Positions 295 through 12,270 of a stretch of 33,457 nucleotides of DNA are shown piece by piece; the first letter of the stretch is position 1, and the number at the start of each line of letters is the position of its first letter. A program made the position numbers and the translations under genes. The stretch covers positions 1 through 33,457 of the forward strand of contig JADQBV010000119.1 of the NCBI GenBank assembly GCA_016278415.1. The letters are read 5' to 3'. The notes under the pieces were generated by a model, which was not told the origin of the DNA, did no database searches, and saw nothing but the letters and a program-made list of their open reading frames with translations. This stretch comes from Halanaerobiales bacterium (lineage in GTDB: Bacteria; Bacillota_F; Halanaerobiia; Halanaerobiales; DTU029).

Positions 295-1308
295 ATGTCT
301 GAGATTAATGTTAAGGTAAACGGTAAAGATGAAATTCTTGAAGAAGGCAGTAGCCTATTGACTTTATTGGAGATAAAGGAGATTAATCCTGAAATAGCTG
401 TAGTTAAATTAAATGATGATATAATTGGAAAGAATAAATTAGGCGAGAAAGAACTGCTAGCTGATGACCAAATAGAGATAATTTTCTTTATGGGCGGAGG
501 TTCTTTTGATTTTAGCGAAGAAGAGATTGAGCGCTACAGTCGTCATATTATCTTGCAGGATATTGGTGGAACAGGCCAACAGAAGATTAAGGAAGCCTCT
601 GTTTTGGTTATTGGTGCAGGTGGGTTAGGCTCACCTGTTTCCTTATATCTAGCAGCTGCAGGGGTTGGCAAACTTGGTATTGTTGATAGTGATGTAGTTG
701 ATATGAGTAATTTACAGAGACAGATAATCCATACTACTGCTGATGTGGATCGTCCTAAAGTAAAATCAGCTGTCGAAAAATTAAATAGCATTAATCCCAA
801 TGTTGAAGTGATTACCTATAATACCTATCTAAATAAGGATAATATAGAAGAAATTATAAAAGACTATGACATTATTGTAGATGGTGTAGATAACTTTCCT
901 ACTCGTTATCTCTTAAATGATGCCTGTATAATGAATAATAAAATCTTAGTAGAGGCAGGTATACTTAGATTTGAAGGACAGGTAATGACTATAGATCCAG
1001 GGGAAGGTCCTTGCTACCGTTGTGTCTTTACCAGTCCACCGGAAGAGGGAACTATACCCTCCTGTCAGGAAGCTGGTGTCTTAGGCGCTATAGCTGGAAC
1101 CATTGGTACTATTCAGGCTACTGAGGTCTTAAAGTTAATTACTGGTGTAGGTAGTCCATTAAAGGGTAAAATATTAATCTATGATGCTAAGGAAATGGAC
1201 TTTCGTAAGGTTGAAGTAAAGAAGAATCCTGATTGTCCTGTTTGTGGTGAAAATCCAACTATTACAGAACTGTTAGAATATGAGATTAGCTGTAATCTCC
1301 ATAACTAA
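295..1308 (+). CDS. ThiS-like sulfur carrier fused to E1/ThiF/MoeB-type adenylyltransferase
   Basis: The 337-residue protein has two domains. Residues 1-69 are a ubiquitin-fold sulfur carrier of the ThiS type; they end IIFFMGGG, the usual ThiS C-terminus, but the chain continues with Ser70. Residues about 71-337 are an E1-like enzyme of the ThiF/MoeB/HesA family. It shows the ATP-binding loop GAGGLGSP (107-114), the DSDVVDMSNLQRQ segment (131-143), a candidate catalytic Cys257 in PSCQEAGVLG, and two zinc Cys pairs (C240/C243 and C314/C317). Such enzymes adenylate the C-terminal glycine of the carrier, which is then converted to a thiocarboxylate. Here that glycine is internal, so release by proteolysis is needed for normal chemistry. 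No thiG, thiH, moaE or moeA lies nearby; the neighbours are a JAMM protease and sulfate-activation genes. A role in cysteine or homocysteine sulfur transfer is therefore likelier than thiamine, but this is inference. Confidence 0.9.
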   Translation: MSEINVKVNGKDEILEEGSSLLTLLEIKEINPEIAVVKLNDDIIGKNKLGEKELLADDQIEIIFFMGGGSFDFSEEEIERYSRHIILQDIGGTGQQKIKEASVLVIGAGGLGSPVSLYLAAAGVGKLGIVDSDVVDMSNLQRQIIHTTADVDRPKVKSAVEKLNSINPNVEVITYNTYLNKDNIEEIIKDYDIIVDGVDNFPTRYLLNDACIMNNKILVEAGILRFEGQVMTIDPGEGPCYRCVFTSPPEEGTIPSCQEAGVLGAIAGTIGTIQATEVLKLITGVGSPLKGKILIYDAKEMDFRKVEVKKNPDCPVCGENPTITELLEYEISCNLHN

Positions 1309-1423
1309 ATCTAATGATATATGCTTAATACTTATTTTAAACATTTACAAATATCTTGAAGAAGAGATTATAAGATGAGGATTTCATATAAAAAACACAT
1401 GATTCAAAGAAAGGAAGCAGATT

Positions 1424-1843
1424 ATGAAAGATTTAGTAATAAAAAGAAATGATTATCAAAGATTAATTGACCACTGTTTAGCCGAAAAGCCACTGGAAGC
1501 CTGCGGGATTTTAGCTGGAGTAATAAAGAATGAAAGATATCAGGTTAAAAAGGTTTATATTATGGAAAATACAAGTGCTAGTTCTGAGGAGTATTTAATG
1601 GAACCTGAAGAACAATTTGAGGTATTTAAGGATATTAGGGAAAGTGGTCTGGAACTTATTTCAATTTTCCATTCACACCCACATAGTCCATCACGCCCAT
1701 CTAGTAACGATATTGATATGGCCTACTATCCAGATGCTGTTTATATAATTATCTCCCTTATGAATACAGAAGATATTGATTTTCGAGGATTTATAATTAG
1801 TAATAAATCATATGAAGAGATTGAAATTGTTGTTGAAGATTAA
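1424..1843 (+). CDS. JAMM/Mov34 (M67 family) zinc metalloprotease
   Basis: This 139-residue single-domain protein carries a complete JAMM signature: Glu25 in PLEACG, then HSH (His83, His85), seven residues, Ser93, two residues, Asp96. His83, His85 and Asp96 bind zinc and Glu25 is the general base. Bacterial stand-alone members such as Mycobacterium Mec, QbsD and Wolinella HcyD act on ThiS/MoaD-like sulfur carriers, either trimming residues beyond the terminal Gly-Gly or releasing the amino acid formed on the carrier. The gene starts 115 bases after the carrier-E1 fusion and reads the same way, so the fusion is the obvious substrate (inference). No signal peptide is seen, so it should act in the cytoplasm. 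A ribosome binding site AAAGGAAG precedes the ATG. Confidence 0.9.
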   Translation: MKDLVIKRNDYQRLIDHCLAEKPLEACGILAGVIKNERYQVKKVYIMENTSASSEEYLMEPEEQFEVFKDIRESGLELISIFHSHPHSPSRPSSNDIDMAYYPDAVYIIISLMNTEDIDFRGFIISNKSYEEIEIVVED

Positions 1844-2052: not shown

Positions 2053-2934
2053 ATGGACCATTTACAGAAATTAGAGAATAAGAGTATTCATATTCTAAGA
2101 GAAGCCTATAGCGAGTTTAAAAATTTATGTATGTTATGGTCAATAGGTAAGGACAGTACAGTGTTACTTTGGTTAGCACGAAAGGCATTTTTCGGTCATG
2201 TGCCGATACCAATGGTACATATAGATACCAACTATAAAATCCCAGAAATGATAGAACACAGAGATAGATTAGCAATAGAGTGGGAATTAGATATGGTCTA
2301 TGGACAGAATCAAAAGGCCTTAGAAGGTAAGCAGACATTTCCTGATGGAAATATATCTAGACTACAGTGTTGTAAATCACTTAAAAGTGAAGCCTTAAAA
2401 CATACTTTAAATGGAGAATGGCCGCGTTACCGTATGAACCATAATACCGGCAAATATGAGAGAGATAAAAATCAAGAGCCTTATACAGGTGTTATTGTTG
2501 GTGTGAGGGCTGATGAAGAAGGAACACGCTCCAAAGAGAGGTATTTTTCACCACGTGATGGTAATAATGACTGGGATATAGGGGATCAACCACCTGAGTT
2601 CTGGGACCAATATAAGACAGACTTTGCTCCGAAAACTCATGTTAGGATTCATCCATTATTGGACTGGACTGAGCTGGATATCTGGGAATATATCGGGCGG
2701 GAGAATATACCTATGGTTTCACTATATTTTGATCAGGGTAATGGAACAAGATACCGTTCTCTTGGCTGTGCACCATGTACAGATCCGGTAAAATCTACGG
2801 CAAAAAATGTTGCCGAGGTAATAGCAGAATTAAAAACAGGAAAATTTGTTAATGTTGCAGAACGTTCAGGACGTGCTCAAGATAAAGAAGATGGTGGTGG
2901 ATTGGAAGAACTTCGTAAAGATGGCTATATGTAG
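2053..2934 (+). CDS. cysD: Sulfate adenylyltransferase small subunit CysD
   Basis: With CysN it forms ATP sulfurylase, which makes adenosine 5'-phosphosulfate (APS) from sulfate and ATP in the cytoplasm. The 293-residue protein has the PP-loop nucleotide-binding motif SIGKDS near residue 31, the [21 protein letters not shown] region typical of the PAPS-reductase/CysD fold in its middle, the [10 protein letters not shown] segment, and the CysD-type tail with ERSGRAQD and ending RKDGYM. Length is normal for CysD (about 300). The gene is preceded by GTAGGGAGG as ribosome binding site and is followed 46 bases later by cysN on the same strand, so the two are almost surely co-transcribed. Confidence 0.96.
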
Positions 2935-2980: not shown

Positions 2981-4843
2981 ATGATTAATGAGTTACCGAA
3001 TAGCGATGTTAATTCGAAAAATGATATACTAGATAAAAATAAAGTAGATAAAGATAATAATCTTAAAATAGTTATAGTTGGTCATGTTGATCATGGTAAA
3101 AGTACGATAATCGGTCGTTTGCTTGCAGATACAGATTCTTTACCAGAGGGGAAATTGGATCAGGTTAAAGAGACCTGCCGCAAGAATTCCAAGCCCTTTG
3201 AATATGCCTTTCTTTTGGATGCCTTAAAGGATGAGCAGGCTCAGGGAATAACTATTGATTCAGCACGTGTCTTTTTTAATACATTTATACGTAAATATAT
3301 TATCTTAGATGCACCAGGTCATATTGAATTTCTTAAAAACATGGTAACTGGGGCAGCCAGGGCAGAAGCGGCTTTGCTAGTAATAGATGCAGCGGAGGGT
3401 GTACAGGAGAATTCGCGCCGCCACGGATATATGCTTTCCATGCTTGGTATTAAACAGGTAGCAGTTTTGGTTAATAAAATGGATCTAGTTGATTATAGTC
3501 AGGATCAGTTTAAAGAAATTGAGAAGGAGTACAGGGACTTTTTGCAGAAGATAGATATAGAGCCATTGACTTTTATTCCAGTTAGTGGGATGAAGGGTGA
3601 TAATATAGCATCACTTTCGGAAAATACTGATTGGTATCAAGGACAAACAGTTCTGAAGTTATTGGATAGTTTAGAAAATGAAAAGCCACCTTCAGACAAA
3701 CCATTTAGAATGCCAGTACAGGATGTATATAAATTTACCCGTGGTGGTGATAATCGACGTATTATTGCAGGGAATATCCTCTCGGGAAAAATAAAAGTAG
3801 GAGATGAAGTAATTTTTTATCCTTCAGGAAAGAGAAGTACTATAAAAAGTATTGAGGGTTTTAATGAGCCATTACAGGATAAAGTTGGTGTTGGTAAAGC
3901 AACTGGTTTTACTCTGACAGAACAGATATATATAACTCGTGGTGAAATTGCAGCAAAAATAGGCGAAGAAATACCCAACTCTACTTCACGAATTAAAACA
4001 AATATTTTCTGGTTGGGTAAGAATCCAATGGTGAAAGATAAGGTATATCAATTGAAAGTAGGGACATCTCGCAGTAAAGTAAAGTTAGAAGCCATAAATC
4101 GTATAATTGATGCATCCAACCTCAATCAAGAAGAAAATAAGACTGAGATAGGTCGTCATGATGTGGCAGAGTGTATCCTAAAAGTGGATAAGGCAATATC
4201 TTTTGATTTGGCTAGTCAATTGGACCAAACTAGCCGTTTTGTTATTATAGATGATTATGAAATAGCTGGTGGAGGGATTATACAGGAGAACTTAGATGAT
4301 GACCAGAAATGGATAAGGGAAAAGGTTATACGTCGTAACTACAAGTGGGAACAGAGCAGAATTTCAAAAGAAAACCGTGCAGAAAAATATAATCAGAAAC
4401 CTAGTTTAATTCTAATTACAGGCGAAGAAGATGTTGGTAAAAAACCCACTGCTAAAGCCTTAGAAAAAAGGCTTTTTGATGATGGAAAGATTGTGTACTT
4501 CTTGGGAATCGGTAATCTATTATATGGTGTTGATGCTGATATAAAAAATGGAAATACCAATCACCGAGAAGAACATTTAAGGAGAATGGCAGAAGTGTCC
4601 AATCTAATGCTGGATGCTGGTGCAATACTTATTGTAACTGCTGTGGAATTAACTCAGAATGATCTTGATTTAATTAAAACAACAGTAAACCCTCAGGATA
4701 TCGAAATAGTCTGGTTAGGGAAAAGTGTTACTACAGATATCGATTATGATCTTCACATACCTGAATACATATCTGACCAAGACTCTGCAGGAAAGGTTAA
4801 AGAATTGATTCAGGATAGGGGGATTATCTTTAAACCATGGTAG
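2981..4843 (+). CDS. cysN: Sulfate adenylyltransferase GTPase subunit CysN with degenerate APS-kinase-like C-terminal domain
   Basis: Residues 1 to about 440 form the GTPase that drives ATP sulfurylase: P-loop GHVDHGKST (34-42), DAPGH (110-114) and NKMD (165-168), followed by the elongation-factor-like beta-barrel domains. Residues about 472-620 resemble APS kinase (CysC), as in CysNC fusions, but the active-site motifs have decayed. The Walker A segment reads GEEDVGKK (481-488) instead of the GLSGSGKS form; the DGDNIRHGL signature is replaced by IGNLLYGVD; and the FISPY loop is replaced by TAVELT. The [17 protein letters not shown] stretch still shows the ancestry. A complete cysC follows, so the tail is probably structural or regulatory rather than catalytic. 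The last seven bases overlap the cysC start. The ribosome binding site is AGAGAGGAG. Confidence 0.94.
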
Positions 4844-5580
4844 ATAGCAGAAGAAATGATAAACTGGTAGGAGAGGATGTATCTCTTAATAGAGATAATC
4901 ATGAAAAGAAAATTAAGACAAATATAGGCTTGAAGGTCAAAAATAGAAGAAATAATAAAGGTCAAAGTTGCTCTGATAATAATATAATATGGCATCGCGG
5001 TAAGGTTAGTTTTAAAGACCGTTGCCAGAACTTAGACCAGATAGGACAGGTACTCTGGTTTACCGGATTATCAGGGTCAGGTAAATCTACAATTGCTGTC
5101 GAAGTAGAACGGGCCTTATTGAGTGAAGGAAAAGCTGTCTACCGATTGGATGGTGATAATATCCGGCATGGCTTAAACAGTGATCTGGGATTTTCTACTG
5201 AAGGTAGAAAAGAAAATATTCGCAGGATTGCCGAAGTTGCAGCTCTTTTTAAAGATGCAGGCTTAATAGTCCTTGTCTCTTTTATATCCCCCTATAAAGA
5301 ATCGAGGGAATTTGCTCGTACTAAAGTTGGTAAAGAGTTTTTCAAAGAAATCTTTGTTAAGGTAGATCTAGAAATCTGTATTGAGCGGGACCCTAAAGGC
5401 TTATATAAGAAGGCATTAGCCGGTGAAATAAAAGGGTTTACTGGTGTTTCAGCTCCATACCAGATTCCAGAAAAACCTGACCTGATACTGAATACCGGGG
5501 AAATGTCAGTAGAAGAAAGTGTTAATAAGGTCTTATCTCTGATCAAATCCGAGGACGGTGGTGAGGAGTATGGAGACTGA
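4837..5580 (+). CDS. cysC: Adenylylsulfate kinase CysC
   Basis: This enzyme phosphorylates APS to PAPS. The core has an intact Walker [15 protein letters not shown] near residues 73-86, the [17 protein letters not shown] signature, [16 protein letters not shown], and [12 protein letters not shown], all typical of active APS kinases. The protein is 247 residues because about 50 basic, asparagine- and lysine-rich residues precede the conserved [10 protein letters not shown] start of the fold; most relatives are about 200 residues. The annotated ATG overlaps the cysN stop by seven bases, which suits translational coupling, but its ribosome binding site (AGGATAGGGGG) is rather far, so a later start is possible. 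Its 3' end overlaps the next gene. Confidence 0.95.
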
Positions 5581-6322
5581 AATCTTTTTATTAGTTATTC
5601 TATTATCTTTTATATTTCAATATGTAGATGCAACTATAGGTATGGGTTTTGGCACAACCTTGACTCCCGTTCTTTTAATGCTGGGTTTTCTACCTTTAGA
5701 GGTAGTTCCGGCAGTATTGTTTGGTCAGATAGCAGGTGGAGGAATAGGAGCTTTATTTCATTATCGTCTAGGGAATGTTAACTTATCAGCAGACTCTGTT
5801 GATAAAAAGGTGATTATGGTTTTTTCTATTTTTGGTATCTTTGCTACAATATTTGCTATATATTTTGCGCTAAATATTTCTGAGGAATTATTAAAAACAT
5901 TTATAGGAACAATAATTCTAGTAGTTGGTATAGTAATTTTAATAAAACGAAATCGGACTATATCCTTTTCCTGGAAAGGCTTAATCATAGTAGCTATAAT
6001 TAGTGCCTTTAATAAGGGGCTAAGTGGTGGAGGTTATGGACCATTAGTAACAGGTGGGCAGTTAATAAACGGGCGCAATAGCAGAAATTCAGTAGCAAGT
6101 ACTACAATTGCTGAGGTGTTAGTGAGTATAGTTGGTTTCCTGGGGTATTTTCTTTATTCAGGCACTATCTTCTGGGGTCTTGCCATTGCGATAAGTATAG
6201 GATCAATTATGGCAGGTCCCCTTGCGGCATATACATTAAATAAGATGAACGAAGTAAATCTTAAAACCCTGATAGGTGTTGTTGTGTGTCTTCTGGGATT
6301 ATTAACCCTTGCTAAACTATAA
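5558..6322 (+). CDS. TauE/SafE (TSUP) family membrane transporter, probably sulfate/sulfite-related
   Basis: The 254-residue hydrophobic protein has about eight membrane segments. It shows the TSUP-type start region with GMGFGTTLTPVLL and the second-half repeat NKGLSGGGYGPLVTGGQ. Family members move sulfite, sulfate, taurine-derived sulfonates or other organosulfur anions; the overlap with cysC makes sulfate uptake or sulfite handling the best guess (inference). The start is ambiguous: GTG at 5558, GTG at 5561 or ATG at 5570 are in frame. The GAGGA at 5551-5555 suits 5561, while AGGAG lies too close to 5570. In every case the gene begins inside cysC, indicating one operon. Confidence 0.88.
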   Translation: MVRSMETEIFLLVILLSFIFQYVDATIGMGFGTTLTPVLLMLGFLPLEVVPAVLFGQIAGGGIGALFHYRLGNVNLSADSVDKKVIMVFSIFGIFATIFAIYFALNISEELLKTFIGTIILVVGIVILIKRNRTISFSWKGLIIVAIISAFNKGLSGGGYGPLVTGGQLINGRNSRNSVASTTIAEVLVSIVGFLGYFLYSGTIFWGLAIAISIGSIMAGPLAAYTLNKMNEVNLKTLIGVVVCLLGLLTLAKL

Positions 6323-6354: not shown

Positions 6355-6966
6355 GTGATTTCTATCTATTATCCGTTATTTCTTCAAATCGAAAATAAGC
6401 CCTGCTTAATTGTAGGTGGGGGTAATATTGCTTATCATAAAGCTAAGAAATTATTAGAATATGGTGCCGATTTACAGATAGTCAGCCCTGATATTGATAA
6501 AAGATTATATAATCTGTTAACTGAGGAAAAACTAATTTCAAATCAATATCATCAAGAACACTGTCAAGGGAAGTTAATAGTTATAGCTGCCACAGATGAT
6601 GATCAATTAAATAAAAAAGTTGCTAAAGATGCAGTTGAAGCTGGTGCTCTGTTTAATGCTGTAGATCAAATTGAGCTTTGTCAGTTTATAGTCCCTGCAG
6701 TTGTTAAAAGAGGGGATCTTCAGATAGCTGTTAGTACAGCTGGTAAAAGCCCTGCTCTTTCTGGTATAATAAGAAAAGGTCTTGAGAATAGGTTTGGAGA
6801 TGAATATGGAGATTATCTAGAAGAGTTAGGGATTTTAAGGGAAATGATAAAAAGTTCGGTTTCTGATAGGGAACTTAGAAGAGAGATATTAATTAAAATG
6901 GCTAAACTTATTTATGAAGGAGGCAAAATAGATGTTACAACGTCCCAGGAGATTGAGAAAGAATAG
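6355..6966 (+). CDS. sirC: Precorrin-2 dehydrogenase / sirohydrochlorin ferrochelatase-type protein
   Basis: It oxidises precorrin-2 to sirohydrochlorin with NAD and may also insert iron, giving siroheme. The 203-residue protein matches the N-terminal half of CysG/Met8p: YYPLFL start, the NAD loop [15 protein letters not shown], the IAATDD strand, [18 protein letters not shown], and the [12 protein letters not shown] helix. No methyltransferase half is attached; that activity is in the cobA-hemD fusion downstream. No ATG lies at the start. GTG at 6355 overlaps its own AGGAG ribosome binding site (6351-6355), so an ATT (6358) or ATC (6364) start is possible; the latter would give the usual family N-terminus. 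The gene follows the transporter by 32 bases and overlaps hemB by 35. Confidence 0.9.
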
Positions 6967-7939
6967 TGGAATGCGATCAATGGTTAGAGAAACCAGTTTG
7001 AATGTTGATGATCTTATTTACCCCATGTTTGTTGTTAGCGGAAAAGAGATTAAAGAAGAAATCAAAACATTACCTGATTGCTATCATATGTCTATAGATA
7101 TTCTTTTAGATGATATAAGAGAAATAGTTAGATTAGGAATCAAGGCAATATTACTTTTTGGTATTCCTAAAGAAAAAGATGAATTTGCTAGTAGTTCATG
7201 GAATGATAATGGCATAGTACAGCAGGCTGTCAGAGAGATCAAAGGTAGCTACCCAGAGTTATTAGTAATAACAGATATTTGCCTTTGTGCTTATACCAGT
7301 CACGGTCATTGCGGGATTATAAAAGAAGATGGAGGCAAAGGGTCTGCCATAGAAAACGAAAATCATGATATCAAAACAATTGATAACGATAAAACACTAG
7401 AAATCTTGGCTAAAATAGCATTATCACATGCTAAAGCAGGTGCAGATATAGTTGCTCCTTCAGATATGATGGATGGTAGGGTTTTTAAAATTAGAGAGGC
7501 CCTAGATAGTGGAGGCTATCATGATACCGCAATAATGAGTTATAGTGCAAAATATGCATCTGCATTTTATGGTCCTTTTCGTGATGCGGCTGATTCTGCT
7601 CCACAATTTGGTGACCGTTCAACATATCAAATGGATTATAGTAATAGCAAAGAGGCATTAAAAGAGGTTAAGCTTGACATTGCAGAAGGTGCAGATATAG
7701 TAATGATTAAACCAGCGTTATCATATCTTGATATTATAAAACAGACCACAGACATTGTAGATATACCAGTAGCAGCATATAGTGTTAGTGGTGAGTATGC
7801 TATGGTTAAACATGCTGCACAAGTTGGGTTATGTAAGGAACAGGAAATGATGACGGAAATTTTAACATCGATTAAGAGGGCCGGTGCAGATATTATTATT
7901 ACCTACTATGCGAAAGAATTAGCCCAGCAATTATCTTAA
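6932..7939 (+). CDS. hemB: Delta-aminolevulinic acid dehydratase (porphobilinogen synthase) HemB
   Basis: It condenses two 5-aminolevulinate molecules to porphobilinogen. The 335-residue protein keeps both active-site lysines, Lys207 in [13 protein letters not shown] and Lys260 in [11 protein letters not shown], and the zinc cysteines C117, C119 and C127 in [12 protein letters not shown], so it is a zinc-type enzyme. The start at 6932 is supported by AAGGAGG at 6917-6923, eight bases away, within the end of the preceding gene. The overlap implies co-translation with precorrin-2 dehydrogenase. Confidence 0.97.
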
Positions 7940-8108
7940 AAAATTTATGATAGTCCTAATTTTTTATGTGAATCATGTCTTTATAATGAAATAATACAAT
8001 TATCTTGATTAATTAAGGAATTACTAATACTTACTAAGTACTTGAAAATTTTATTTATTATATAAAGAAATAGTCTATGATGAGTCATTTAATAGGGAGA
8101 TTAATAAT

Positions 8109-9515
8109 ATGAATTTGGGTATGATTAGTTTTAACTTTATGAATACACCTCTTGAATTTCGTGAAAAAATCAAATTTTATTCTAAGGACTATCATACAGC
8201 TTATGAAATGCTGAATAATAGTTCTTTTTTACAGGGTGCAGTAATTTTATCTACCTGTAATAGGACTGAAATATATTGTAATATTAGAATTAATTCTTCA
8301 AATGACACCAATATGATTGACAATCGGAGTATAAGTAATATTAATCAGGAAATAGTTAATATATTAAGTAATATTTTTTTAATAGATATGAGTGTCTTGA
8401 GCAAATATGCTATATATAAAAGAGGAATATCTGCTATAGAACATATTTTTCATGTATCTTCAGGGCTTTTTTCACAAGTTATTGGAGAAGAGCAGATACT
8501 TGCTCAAGTGAAGGATGCCTTGCGAATATCGCTGGAGCATCAGGCTTCAGATAGAAACCTAAACAGACTATTTCAACAAGCCATTTCTACTTCAAAAAGT
8601 GTTAGGAGTAAAACTGGTATTTCTGAAAAAAACCTCTCTATTAGTTCTGTTTGTGTGAATTATATTGAAAATATATTTCCCAACTTAGTTAATAAAAAAA
8701 TTCTGGTTATTGGTGTTGGTGAGATGAGTAAGATTGTGCTGCAATTGTTACAGGAGAAAGGTATCAGTAAGATATATGCAACTAACAGGACTCATGGTAA
8801 GATAGTAAATATTGCTGATTACTTTGATAACTTAACAGTTATTAGTTATGATCAAATTGCTGAAATTGCTGTTGAGGTTGATATAATTATTAGTTCAACT
8901 GCTGCCCCCCATTATGTAATTAAAGCAGATGATTTTAAAAATAATTATAATAAGAAGTATAGAACGGCTATTAGCCATTGTTCACAGGCGCAGAAAAGAG
9001 ATTCTAATTATAATCATATTGTAAAAGGGGGAGAAGGGGAGAATATTCAAGATCAAGACAAAGATGATACTAAGGTAGATATATGTATGTTTGACCTAGC
9101 AGTGCCGAGGGATATTGACCCTGAAATAGAAGATTTACCTGGTATAAGACTTTATAATATAGACATCTTGACTGAAGAAATTAATAAAAATCAGAAATAT
9201 CGTTTACAGGAATCAGAAAAAGCAAAAATCATTATCAAGAATGATATCAAGAAAATTGAAGAGTGGTTTAGTTGGCAGGAAATCGTTCCTGTTATAAAAG
9301 AGATAAAAAGAACTAATACAGGAATTATTAAAGAAGAGATTAAAACTCTGATGAATAGGATTGATATAGATGATGAAACAAATAAGGAGATTGTAAATTT
9401 TGCTGAATATCTGGAGAGCAAGTTATTTAATAGAATTATATTGAATATGAAAACTATGGTAAATAAAACTGATGACGAAGAAATTATTAAGAAGTTTTAT
9501 GACCTTTTGACCTAA
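8109..9515 (+). CDS. hemA: Glutamyl-tRNA reductase HemA, with an internal insertion
   Basis: It reduces glutamyl-tRNA(Glu) to glutamate-1-semialdehyde, the entry step of C5 tetrapyrrole synthesis. Catalytic Cys50 sits in STCNRTEIY; GEEQILAQVKDAL and the NADPH loop VIGVGEMSK (near 200-208) are typical; the C-terminal dimerisation helices are present. At 468 residues it is longer than the usual 410-450. Much of the excess is a polar, low-complexity stretch at about residues 283-323, just before the conserved FDLAVPRDIDP, where relatives have a short loop. A ribosome binding site AATAGGGAG precedes the ATG. It is separated from hemB by 169 bases of AT-rich DNA, so it may have its own promoter. 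Confidence 0.95.
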   Translation: MNLGMISFNFMNTPLEFREKIKFYSKDYHTAYEMLNNSSFLQGAVILSTCNRTEIYCNIRINSSNDTNMIDNRSISNINQEIVNILSNIFLIDMSVLSKYAIYKRGISAIEHIFHVSSGLFSQVIGEEQILAQVKDALRISLEHQASDRNLNRLFQQAISTSKSVRSKTGISEKNLSISSVCVNYIENIFPNLVNKKILVIGVGEMSKIVLQLLQEKGISKIYATNRTHGKIVNIADYFDNLTVISYDQIAEIAVEVDIIISSTAAPHYVIKADDFKNNYNKKYRTAISHCSQAQKRDSNYNHIVKGGEGENIQDQDKDDTKVDICMFDLAVPRDIDPEIEDLPGIRLYNIDILTEEINKNQKYRLQESEKAKIIIKNDIKKIEEWFSWQEIVPVIKEIKRTNTGIIKEEIKTLMNRIDIDDETNKEIVNFAEYLESKLFNRIILNMKTMVNKTDDEEIIKKFYDLLT

Positions 9516-9704
9516 TTATACTAGTAATTTTTGTCTGGGCTATTTTCCAAATTTGTTTAGTGGTAAATAACTACCCTTATTATCAATGTGGAGAGTATGT
9601 ATTTTTGTAATGATAAGACATAAAAGATCTAATGTTATAGAATATCCATTGCTATATAATATAATCTTTACTTAAGGAAATCGATTTATTAATTTGGAGG
9701 TGAA

Positions 9705-10667
9705 GTGGTGAATAAGATAGTTGTTGGAACAAGGGGAAGTAATTTGGCTATTACTCAAAGTAATTTATTCATCAAGCAAATAAAAGAGATTGCTCCTAAG
9801 CTAAAAATAGAGATGAAAGTTATAAAAACAAAAGGAGATAAAATTCTAGATAAACCTTTGAGTGAAATAGGTGGAAAAAACATATTCATTGCTGAGATTG
9901 AACAGGCTTTACTTAATGGAGATATAGATATTGCAATTCATAGTCTTAAGGATATGCCTGCAGAGCTTGATAACAGATTAATGTTGGCCTGTTATCCAGA
10001 ACGGGAGGATGCCAGGGATGTTCTTATCTCCAGATTAGGACTTGACTTCTCGGAGTTGCCAGAAGGTTCTGTTTTGGGTAGTGGAAGCTTACGGCGACAG
10101 ATACAGGTGAAACATAATTGGCCTAAGGTAAGTTTTGAAAATATAAGGGGTAATGTTGATACTAGAATAGAAAAGATGAAGAAAAGAGAACTGGCAGGGG
10201 TAATTCTTGCAGCGGCCGGTATACATCGTTTGGGACTTAATCACTTAATAACTAGGTATATTACACCTGAAATCTGTGTACCACCTGCTGGTCAAGGAAC
10301 CCTTGGCATAGAAGTTAATAAAGAAAACCAGGAATTAATTGAACTATTACAGGCAATAGATCATATAGAAACAAGGATTGTAAGTTTTGCAGAAAGGTCA
10401 GCTTTAGCTGATCTAGGTGGTGATTGCCATCTCCCAGTTGGCATATATGGGACAATTAAAGATGAGAAACTATTATTACTAGGCTTTTTGGCCAGAGACT
10501 GTGGCGAGCCTTATATAGAGGAAAGAATTAGTACCGATATCGGAATTGCTGCTTATAGAAATGGCTTAATTTCAAGGGGAGAACTTGAACTTGAATCTGT
10601 AGAAGCTGGTAGAAAACTAGCTAAAATAATATTAGCAAATGGTGGAAGTCAGATACTGGGAATATAG
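9705..10667 (+). CDS. hemC: Porphobilinogen deaminase (hydroxymethylbilane synthase) HemC
   Basis: It polymerises four porphobilinogens into hydroxymethylbilane on a dipyrromethane cofactor. The 320-residue protein begins with KIVVGTRGSNLAITQS, contains the IAIHSLKDMPAEL region, GSGSLRRQIQVKH, IRGNVDTRIEKM, and the cofactor-binding cysteine C241 in GGDCHLPVG. Two GTG codons in tandem (9705, 9708) can start it. The GGAGG at 9696-9700 fits 9708 better (seven-base spacing), which would remove one residue. It lies 189 bases after hemA, and a 70-base gap leads to the next gene of the pathway. Confidence 0.96.
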   Translation: MVNKIVVGTRGSNLAITQSNLFIKQIKEIAPKLKIEMKVIKTKGDKILDKPLSEIGGKNIFIAEIEQALLNGDIDIAIHSLKDMPAELDNRLMLACYPEREDARDVLISRLGLDFSELPEGSVLGSGSLRRQIQVKHNWPKVSFENIRGNVDTRIEKMKKRELAGVILAAAGIHRLGLNHLITRYITPEICVPPAGQGTLGIEVNKENQELIELLQAIDHIETRIVSFAERSALADLGGDCHLPVGIYGTIKDEKLLLLGFLARDCGEPYIEERISTDIGIAAYRNGLISRGELELESVEAGRKLAKIILANGGSQILGI

Positions 10668-10737
10668 ACTTATATTATAGATCATCTCCATAAACGTGGG
10701 TATTGCACCTAGATATTTTGCTATTTAAATTGAAAGA

Positions 10738-12270
10738 GTGATATATATGATAAAAAATGAAAAAAAAGGTACTGTATATTTAGTCGGTGCTGGTCCAGGT
10801 GATGATAGACTAATTACTGATTGGGGTTTAGATATACTTAAAAAGGCAGATTTAGTTTTTTATGATCGTTTAGTAAATCCCTCATTATTATCTTTTACAA
10901 AAGAAGATGCAGAAATAGTATATGTGGGCAAGGCTCCAAATAATCACTTTTATACACAGGAAGAAATAAATAGCAGATTAGTTAATTCTGTTAAAGAAGG
11001 AAAAATTGTTATAAGATTAAAAGGTGGTGATCCCTATGTTTTTGGTCGTGGTGGCGAAGAGGCACTAGAGTTACTGGAGGCAGGTATAGACTTTAAAGTT
11101 ATTCCTGGAATTACATCAGTAATGGCTGCTGCATCATATGCTGGAATCCCACTTACTCACAGGGGGTTAAGCTCTTCTTTTCATGTTTTTTCTGGTCATG
11201 ATATGGAAAAGCTAGATTTCGAAAACATCGCTTCTCTTACAGGAACATTAGTATTTGTAATGGGACTTAGAAATCTTAATACTATTGCTACAAAGTTAAT
11301 GGAATATGGGGTTTCAGCATCAAAACCAACAGCAGTAATTCATTATGGTACAACTGCTAGTCAGAATGTTAATATTGGGAGTTTAAAGACGATATATAGT
11401 GAAGTAAAAAAGCAAGGAATTCAATCACCTGTATTAATTATTATTGGAGATGTTGTAAAACTTTCAGATAGGCTTAATTGGTTTAATGAAGGGGTCTTAG
11501 CGGGAAGTAGGATAATGGTAACTAGAACAAAGGAACAACAATTTGAGCTGGGTAATAAAATAGCTGAACTTGGAGGGGAACCTTTTTATCTTCCAACAAT
11601 AAAAATTGAGGGTCCGATATTAAATGAGAGCAATAAAGGGAAGTTTTTAAGTCTGAAAGAGTATGACTGGATTTTCCTAACTAGTGTTAATGCAGTAAAA
11701 CACTTTTTTGAGTTGTTAAGAATATTACAGATAGATATACGTTTACTTGTTAATATAAAATTTGCTATTGTAGGTCCTGCTACAGAAGAAGCTCTAAATG
11801 AAAGAGGAATTTATGCTGATCTTGTACCCGATATTAATACTATAGAATATCTAATGGCAGCATTTAATGAAAAGGTTATGAAATCATCTAAGGTTTTTAT
11901 CCCTTGTTCAAAAGAAGCGAATAACAATTCAGATATTATCTTAAGAGAGGCTGGTCACAAAGTGGATAGAGCTACAATATATGCACCATCATTACCAGAG
12001 TTGAGAGATATAAACCTTCGACATTTTTTTAATAGTCGAAGAGTTGATTTGCTTACATTTACTAGTCCATCTACAGTCAAAAACTTCATTACTATCTGTG
12101 ATAGAAATATTAACTCAATACAGAAGCAAATTCCAGTTGTCTGCATTGGACCTGTTACAGCAGAATCAGCAAAGGAATATGGCTTTAATGTTATAGCTGT
12201 TGCAGATGAGTATAATATAAATGGATTAATTGCTAAAATCATTGAAAATTATACTAAGAAAACTGAATAA
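10738..12270 (+). CDS. cobA-hemD: Bifunctional uroporphyrinogen-III C-methyltransferase / uroporphyrinogen-III synthase
   Basis: The first half (to about residue 245) is an S-adenosylmethionine-dependent uroporphyrinogen-III methyltransferase with VYLVGAGPGD, IRLKGGDPYVFGRGGEEA and PGITSVMAAASYAGIPLTHR. The second half (about 252 onward) is a HemD domain beginning GSRIMVTRTKEQQ and containing TFTSPSTVKNF. Together they close hydroxymethylbilane to uroporphyrinogen III and methylate it to precorrin-2, the branch point to siroheme and cobalamin. This fusion is common in Clostridia and relatives. GTG at 10738 is the longest start, but ATG at 10747 is better placed behind AAAGAG and gives the family N-terminus, so 507 residues is the likely length. 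It closes the tetrapyrrole block. Confidence 0.95.
   Translation: MIYMIKNEKKGTVYLVGAGPGDDRLITDWGLDILKKADLVFYDRLVNPSLLSFTKEDAEIVYVGKAPNNHFYTQEEINSRLVNSVKEGKIVIRLKGGDPYVFGRGGEEALELLEAGIDFKVIPGITSVMAAASYAGIPLTHRGLSSSFHVFSGHDMEKLDFENIASLTGTLVFVMGLRNLNTIATKLMEYGVSASKPTAVIHYGTTASQNVNIGSLKTIYSEVKKQGIQSPVLIIIGDVVKLSDRLNWFNEGVLAGSRIMVTRTKEQQFELGNKIAELGGEPFYLPTIKIEGPILNESNKGKFLSLKEYDWIFLTSVNAVKHFFELLRILQIDIRLLVNIKFAIVGPATEEALNERGIYADLVPDINTIEYLMAAFNEKVMKSSKVFIPCSKEANNNSDIILREAGHKVDRATIYAPSLPELRDINLRHFFNSRRVDLLTFTSPSTVKNFITICDRNINSIQKQIPVVCIGPVTAESAKEYGFNVIAVADEYNINGLIAKIIENYTKKTE

Follow-up and report, generated by a model that had tools for sequence, protein, structure and literature searches.

A sulfur carrier joined to its E1 enzyme beside a JAMM protease in Halanaerobiales: a probable precursor in sulfate assimilation

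How can a ThiS-type sulfur carrier act if the glycine that should form its C terminus is held in a peptide bond? This question is raised by a contig of 33,457 bases from a Halanaerobiales bacterium (JADQBV010000119.1, assembly GCA_016278415.1), all of which was analysed and which we call the window. Near its start lies a gene in which a ThiS/HcyS-type carrier is fused to a MoeB/ThiF-type E1 enzyme, followed after 115 bases on the same strand by the gene for a JAMM/M67 metalloprotease. From comparison with related loci, we consider it probable that the fusion is a precursor, that the neighbouring JAMM protease cuts it after Gly69, and that the released carrier helps to feed sulfur from sulfate into amino acids.

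The open reading frame and its profile matches (Table 1) confirm the first-pass annotation of the fusion, according to which a ThiS-like domain ending in MGGG (residues 66–69, with the ATG at 490–492) continues directly into the E1 enzyme at Ser70 (codon 502–504), with no linker before the E1. As encoded, the carrier has no free C-terminal glycine because the chain runs on, and it would acquire one only by cleavage. The adjoining gene encodes a complete JAMM protease, as that annotation had also stated, with Glu25 and HSHPHSPSRPSSND at residues 83–96; the full E...HSH-x7-S-x2-D motif recurs in all eight JAMM proteins that adjoin other fusions. Across 53 aligned rows, the glycine-rich loop, Arg83, Cys257 and Cys240/243/314/317 of the E1 domain are invariant; we presume that the arginine and cysteine have their usual E1 roles and that the latter four residues form a Cys4 zinc site. 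An AlphaFold2 model built from 53 aligned sequences has a mean predicted local distance difference test (pLDDT) score of 88.1, with values below 50 at residues 66–69, flanked by carrier and E1 domains that are both modelled with confidence, and the junction that carries the putative cut site is therefore predicted to be flexible. Two other stretches, 255–259 and 332–337, also score below 50.

The fused arrangement is not an oddity of one contig. In a search of 5.8 billion proteins, from which 8,000 candidates were scored and 120 listed, GGG runs straight into the E1 domain in 30 of the 120 homologues listed, including the window protein, which excludes chance. All 30 keep GGG, 29 keep MGGG, and 27 have exactly ten residues between GGG and the RYSRH motif, whereas the residue after GGG is alanine in 16, serine in 12, valine in one and glutamate in one. 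The glycine codons also vary; retention of the motif despite codon variation is the pattern expected of a carrier destined for later release. Two homologues, P0020 and P0026, begin at the internal ATG of MGGG, but their shown sequence matches full-length P0005 and L001, and we therefore take them for start-call differences.

A genome scan yielded 21 loci, six of them Halanaerobiales loci with the fusion (L001–L006), and the JAMM gene comes next in all six. Co-occurrence of fusion and M67 genes, which the first-pass annotation proposed to survey, proved strict at the level of whole genomes, as counted in relatives of the window's own genome: 7 of 38 Halanaerobiales genomes have an E1 match at E 1e-60, fused in every case, and exactly these seven have a JAMM match above 70 bits, always adjacent. 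The remaining 29 places found by the JAMM search in the 38 genomes score 20–26 bits and, for 27, the frame is 231–253 residues long; we take these weak matches to be RadC-like relatives. A phylum sample of 299 genomes added one further fusion lineage, in genome G151, with the JAMM gene adjacent and a sulfite reductase match next. Thus, the fusion adjoins a JAMM gene in all eight genomes whose context was read (seven Halanaerobiales and G151).

What surrounds this gene pair suggests what it is for. Because the contig begins only 294 bases before the fusion, earlier operon genes are not visible in the window, which itself shows the fusion, the JAMM gene and CysD-CysN-CysC. That the genes after the JAMM protease activate sulfate, as first annotated, therefore stands; their status as a separate operon is not clear. 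Fusion, JAMM gene and CysD are closely spaced in locus L071 (genome G015); in the window, an A/T-rich inverted repeat separates the JAMM gene from CysD. The order in L071 is sulfite reductase with a C-terminal TusA domain, cysteine synthase, MetY, APS reductase alpha subunit with a ferredoxin, fusion, JAMM, CysD, CysN and CysC. This locus thus holds every part of an HcyS-HcyF-HcyD-type cluster (carrier, E1, JAMM, pyridoxal phosphate (PLP)-dependent sulfhydrylase, sulfite reductase and ATP sulfurylase), and the fuller fusion relatives show a sulfate-assimilation operon that includes cysteine synthase and/or MetY. Pfam and NCBIfam matches on representatives from L001, L003, L004 and L071 back these labels; the 101-residue ferredoxin has only general 4Fe-4S matches, so the name AprB rests on its position. 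Loci L089 and L090 carry unfused versions, with ThiS, E1, JAMM, a sulfite-reductase-like match, TusA, MetY, AprA, AprB, CysD and CysN. The fusion–JAMM operon corresponds to neighbourhood type 4e in Iyer et al. 2006, described as a ThiS/MoaD-like protein, JAB, an E1 without rhodanese, SirA/TusA, sulfite reductase, O-acetylhomoserine sulfhydrylase, ATP sulfurylase and APS kinase (PMC1779556). In its account of type 4e, that source notes a carrier–sulfite reductase fusion only, whereas the carrier is joined here to the E1; nor does the description have TusA fused to sulfite reductase, as it is in the present relatives (PF01206 at the C terminus of the reductase in L071:2915-5341 and L003:3252-5597), where reductase and sulfur relay are also joined.

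We infer the following sequence of events. The carrier could not be adenylated while its last glycine is peptide-bonded to the E1, and the fusion would be a precursor. The adjacent JAMM protease would hydrolyse the Gly69–Ser70 bond in the flexible junction, leaving GGG as the C terminus of the carrier and Ser70 as the first residue of the E1, and the freed E1 would then adenylate the freed carrier. Sulfide made from sulfate by CysDN, APS reductase and the sulfite reductase with its TusA domain would convert the carrier to a thiocarboxylate, from which a PLP enzyme, cysteine synthase or MetY, would pass sulfur to an amino-acid acceptor. Finally, the same JAMM protease would free the amino acid from the carrier. 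The comparative side of the processed sulfur-transfer system first proposed for this locus has held up, with an adjacent JAMM gene in eight of eight genomes, GGG in 30 of 30 fusions, a sulfate operon with cysteine synthase and/or MetY in relatives and tails on unfused carriers; the cut, its position, release of carrier and E1 in a 1:1 ratio and the acceptor keep the standing of proposals.

The nearest functional parallel is the HcyS-HcyF-HcyD-MetY thiocarboxylate pathway that Krishnamoorthy and Begley reportedly described in Wolinella succinogenes in 2011, in which HcyD is said to remove alanine from HcyS-Ala. That system reportedly likewise brings together a tailed carrier, an E1, a JAMM protein, MetY and sulfate-reduction genes; unlike the present one, its carrier and E1 are separate and only one residue is removed, whereas in the present fusion the extension past the glycines is an entire E1.

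Carrier C termini were read at 77 loci (78 rows) out of a longer list of places, using an alignment seeded from loci around these E1s with tails removed before building. The carriers were divided into two classes at 74 bits, a threshold chosen after the scores had been seen; a truncated carrier in G319 was not counted, and L117 and L143 both represent one G183 gene. Within the top-scoring class (42 genomes), the carrier has a tail of 2–15 residues in 20 genomes, a single extra residue in 14, and runs into an E1 in eight. None of the 34 unfused top-scoring carriers ends at GGG. By contrast, the chain stops precisely at the glycine motif in 34 lower-scoring rows, which resemble thiamin-type ThiS and whose loci, about 4–10 kb each, showed no JAMM gene; a second, lower-scoring G183 carrier with a one-residue tail was placed in neither class. 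A JAMM gene is present in 20 of 20 genomes with tails of at least two residues, 5 of 14 with one-residue tails and 8 of 8 with fusions. Seven unfused actinobacterial loci, outside these counts, also show tails after MGGG and a JAMM gene beside the E1. Because all 34 unfused top-scoring carriers extend past the glycines, by 1–15 residues, removal of a C-terminal cap looks ancestral on these sequences, with fusion making the E1 the cap.

A look-alike family provides the complementary comparison. PF14453 matches occur in 15 of the 299 phylum genomes (14 above the cut-off), and all 12 of the PF14453 ThiF fusions that were read lack a glycine motif before the E1; the present fusion has no PF14453 match in its Pfam listing, nor has that of G002. 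Both kinds place a ubiquitin-like domain N-terminal to a ThiF-type enzyme, but the PF14453 fusions, which we take to be the Campylobacter type of Iyer et al., sit in a thiamin context with a second, solo ThiS, and it is because of this solo ThiS that the authors suggest another role for the fused domain, as far as their comments on such fusions go (PMC1779556). Since unfused carriers are capped and the present fusions keep a glycine motif that PF14453 fusions lack, JAMM cleavage at Gly69–Ser70 is likely. The two kinds of ThiF fusion can thus be told apart, one having the glycine motif and a JAMM protease and the other having no motif.

Fusion appears to have happened repeatedly. In a tree of E1 domains, fusions fall into three separate lineages (Halanaerobiales, G151, and P0032 with P0086); four changes of the fused label are needed, three of them forced by well-supported branches, and a single clade for all fusions is rejected in the approximately unbiased (AU) test (p-AU 7.9e-7). 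Three gains and one loss, in P0031, is the simplest reading, although the E1 tree cannot separate gain from loss. In G120, sister to the G151 fusion, the carrier is unfused and its tail is 15 residues long. In the 17 rows (16 genes) that have an unfused carrier directly 5' of the E1, carrier and E1 differ in reading frame, and for 16 of these rows only 1–28 bases separate the carrier stop from the RYSRH codons. Genes that nearly abut or overlap in this way could be fused by a small insertion or deletion. In the tree that gave the four label changes, some E1 rows were incomplete because their loci ended within the gene, and P0040 was lost; in a second tree, the only one on which the AU test was run, fuller copies replaced four rows and two rows were added, with the G226 E1 not adjoining its carrier and the G320 E1 on a different contig from its carrier. 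The kinship test described below was rerun on 40 rows free of these two faults.

Several observations weigh against a JAMM-processed precursor. The JAMM gene is equally frequent beside unfused carriers with tails of at least two residues, and may be kept for amino-acid release alone; because JAMM proteins have, by analogy, this release job in unfused systems, co-occurrence is no proof of cutting. Nine of the 14 genomes with one-residue tails have no JAMM match at E 1e-6, so something else must trim that residue or the residue is tolerated. The association of JAMM with longer caps (28 of 28 versus 5 of 14) gives a Fisher p of 4.5e-6 in a raw test that ignores kinship; with kinship considered, there are two independent pairs on well-supported branches, one agreeing and one neutral, far from significance. 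In the rerun, tail class changes five times and JAMM three times (two earlier), with the same two pairs. As the link follows lineage and independent pairs are few, it is suggestive only. P0031, an unfused E1 of 269 residues on a 1,655-base contig, nests among the Halanaerobiales fusions and may reflect a later split or a start-call effect. A fusion without any JAMM gene, named at the outset as a case that would refute the proposal, was looked for and not found in the eight genomes of read context, a set that leaves out the third lineage, P0032 and P0086. The window's own upstream genes, moreover, are off the contig.

The JAMM protein might release only cysteine or homocysteine from the carrier while another protease cuts the fusion. 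The protease for mycobacterial MoaX is not identified, according to the account available (PMC4326299), and the nine one-residue-tail genomes with no JAMM match must trim or tolerate the residue by other means; with the JAMM gene adjoining the fusion in all eight genomes and a JAMM known to cut a MoaD–MoaE fusion (PMC8832034), we think this division of labor unlikely. We give somewhat less weight still to a carrier domain that is never released and serves for docking or regulation while the E1 charges another, free carrier. PF14453-like fusions do occur beside a second solo ThiS (in the cases described in PMC1779556), and G001–G004 each have at least one further ThiS-family match; however, the glycine motif is kept in 30 of 30 listed fusions and absent from the 12 PF14453 fusions that were read, the fused domain is the sole ThiS-family match in G005 (a metagenome-assembled genome), and the other match in G003 has its own E1-like neighbour (L025).

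Routes that need no protease fare far worse. In the window, a −1 shift would reach a TGA just past the junction, but this stop is missing in L002, L004 and L005, and programmed frameshifting was rejected because the −1 stop is not conserved; self-cleavage through Ser70 was rejected because no nucleophile is conserved after GGG in the 30 fusions. A separate carrier made in either way is very improbable. An internal start at Met66, whose ATG has no obvious Shine–Dalgarno sequence by eye, could not free the carrier. Least credible of all is an assembly or annotation artefact: some gene calls do begin at an internal ATG (P0020 and P0026), yet the frame is intact in named Halanaerobium strain records and on other contigs. 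We therefore retain JAMM processing as the preferred reading.

Cut carrier fusions have precedents. MoaX is cut between Gly82 and Ser83 and is otherwise inactive (PMC4326299), and a Deinococcus MoaD–MoaE fusion is cut by a JAMM (PMC8832034). In both, as in the present fusion, the terminal glycine of a ubiquitin-like carrier is linked to a partner enzyme, and both are cut to become active; MoaX shares the Gly–Ser junction and Deinococcus the JAMM. Their partner is molybdopterin synthase, in a cofactor pathway, rather than an E1. Carriers joined to their own E1, as here, are reported as MoaD–MoeB and Ubl–E1 fusions in Thaumarchaeota, Rokubacteria and NC10, in other taxa and with another carrier type; the descriptions of them give no JAMM pairing or sulfate operon (PMC11237513, PMC2948915). 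In Pelobacter propionicus, Iyer et al. 2006 noted a Ub-like–ThiF fusion that may belong to the present kind, judged by description only, although it is grouped there with the Campylobacter type, whose domain is distinct from ThiS, in a passage that mentions no JAB gene or release (PMC1779556). The components, the type of operon and the notion that a carrier fusion is cut are already in print, as are carrier–E1 fusions in archaea and two bacterial groups. Among open-licence papers, we found none that reports a carrier–E1 fusion with a JAMM partner or the processing of such a fusion, and the fused chain together with its protease looks like a new combination of known parts. As a ubiquitin-like protein made in one piece with the enzyme that activates it, this chain would be a simple bacterial counterpart of ubiquitin precursors; if the reading is true, a JAMM from the deubiquitinase family sets the carrier free within primary sulfur metabolism.

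Two further observations concern other genomes. In Nitrospirota, MGGG carriers are fused at the same point to cysteine synthase (L018:6638-7780, L012:6559-7707, also L007 and L008), with PF02597 and PF00291 in one protein in L012 and L018. An E1 gene comes next and a second E1 further on; all four genomes have JAMM genes, none of them seen beside the fusion. In G088, G126 and G161, whose carriers (in L107, L109 and L113) end MGGGGYAFA, the JAMM matches lie in open frames of 428–429 residues, where JAMM may be joined to another domain.

More broadly, carriers of this sulfur-assimilation family may be made capped, with uncapping, mostly by JAMM, arming the carrier, and the short cap may repeatedly have given way to a complete enzyme (the E1 in three lineages, cysteine synthase in Nitrospirota), giving zymogens that free carrier and working partner together. 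We hold this generalization about as readily as we doubt it.

Table 1 Features of the window and of related loci (window positions unless a locus is named)
Feature	Position	Strand	Details
Carrier–E1 fusion gene	295..1308	+	337 aa
ThiS/HcyS-type beta-grasp carrier domain, residues 1-69, ending MGGG	295..501	+	PF02597 (residues 10-69, 22.8 bits, just above the cut-off of 22.5); TIGR01683 (thiS; residues 6-69, 48.4 bits, cut-off 37.45)
MGGG-Ser junction with putative JAMM cut Gly69/Ser70	490..504	+	
MoeB/ThiF-type E1 domain, residues 70-337	502..1305	+	PF00899 (ThiF; residues 81-316, 297.5 bits); closest solved structures E. coli ThiF and MoeB
JAMM/M67 metalloprotease, complete E...HSH-x7-S-x2-D motif	1424..1843	+	139 aa; PF14464 (Prok-JAB; residues 11-117, 82.5 bits); PDB 2kks, JAMM1 5ld9/5lda
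CysD, sulfate adenylyltransferase small subunit	2053..2934	+	profile matches
CysN with C-terminal APS-kinase-like domain	2981..4843	+	profile matches
CysC, APS kinase	4837..5580	+	profile matches
TauE/SafE family permease	5558..6322	+	profile match
Tetrapyrrole/siroheme genes: CysG N-terminal type, HemB, HemA, HemC, CobA-HemD	6355..12270	+	
Coiled-coil-like ORF in Halanaerobium	L002:1633-2136, L003:10721-11197, L004:11445-12053, L005:11467-11916		

Beyond the sulfate-activation genes, the tetrapyrrole/siroheme genes make up the pathway to the sulfite reductase cofactor. The window contains no open reading frame of at least 80 residues between the JAMM gene and cysD; the A/T-rich inverted repeat there, at 1916–1954, is perhaps a terminator or attenuator. 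In Halanaerobium, the same interval holds a repetitive, coiled-coil-like open reading frame with DQRFDKLD-like repeats, recognized by eye. At the contig end, before the fusion, lies an imperfect inverted repeat (2–25/120–143, 24 nt, 83% complementary) that encloses a perfect 10-nt inverted repeat (71–80/98–107), possibly a mobile or repeated element.
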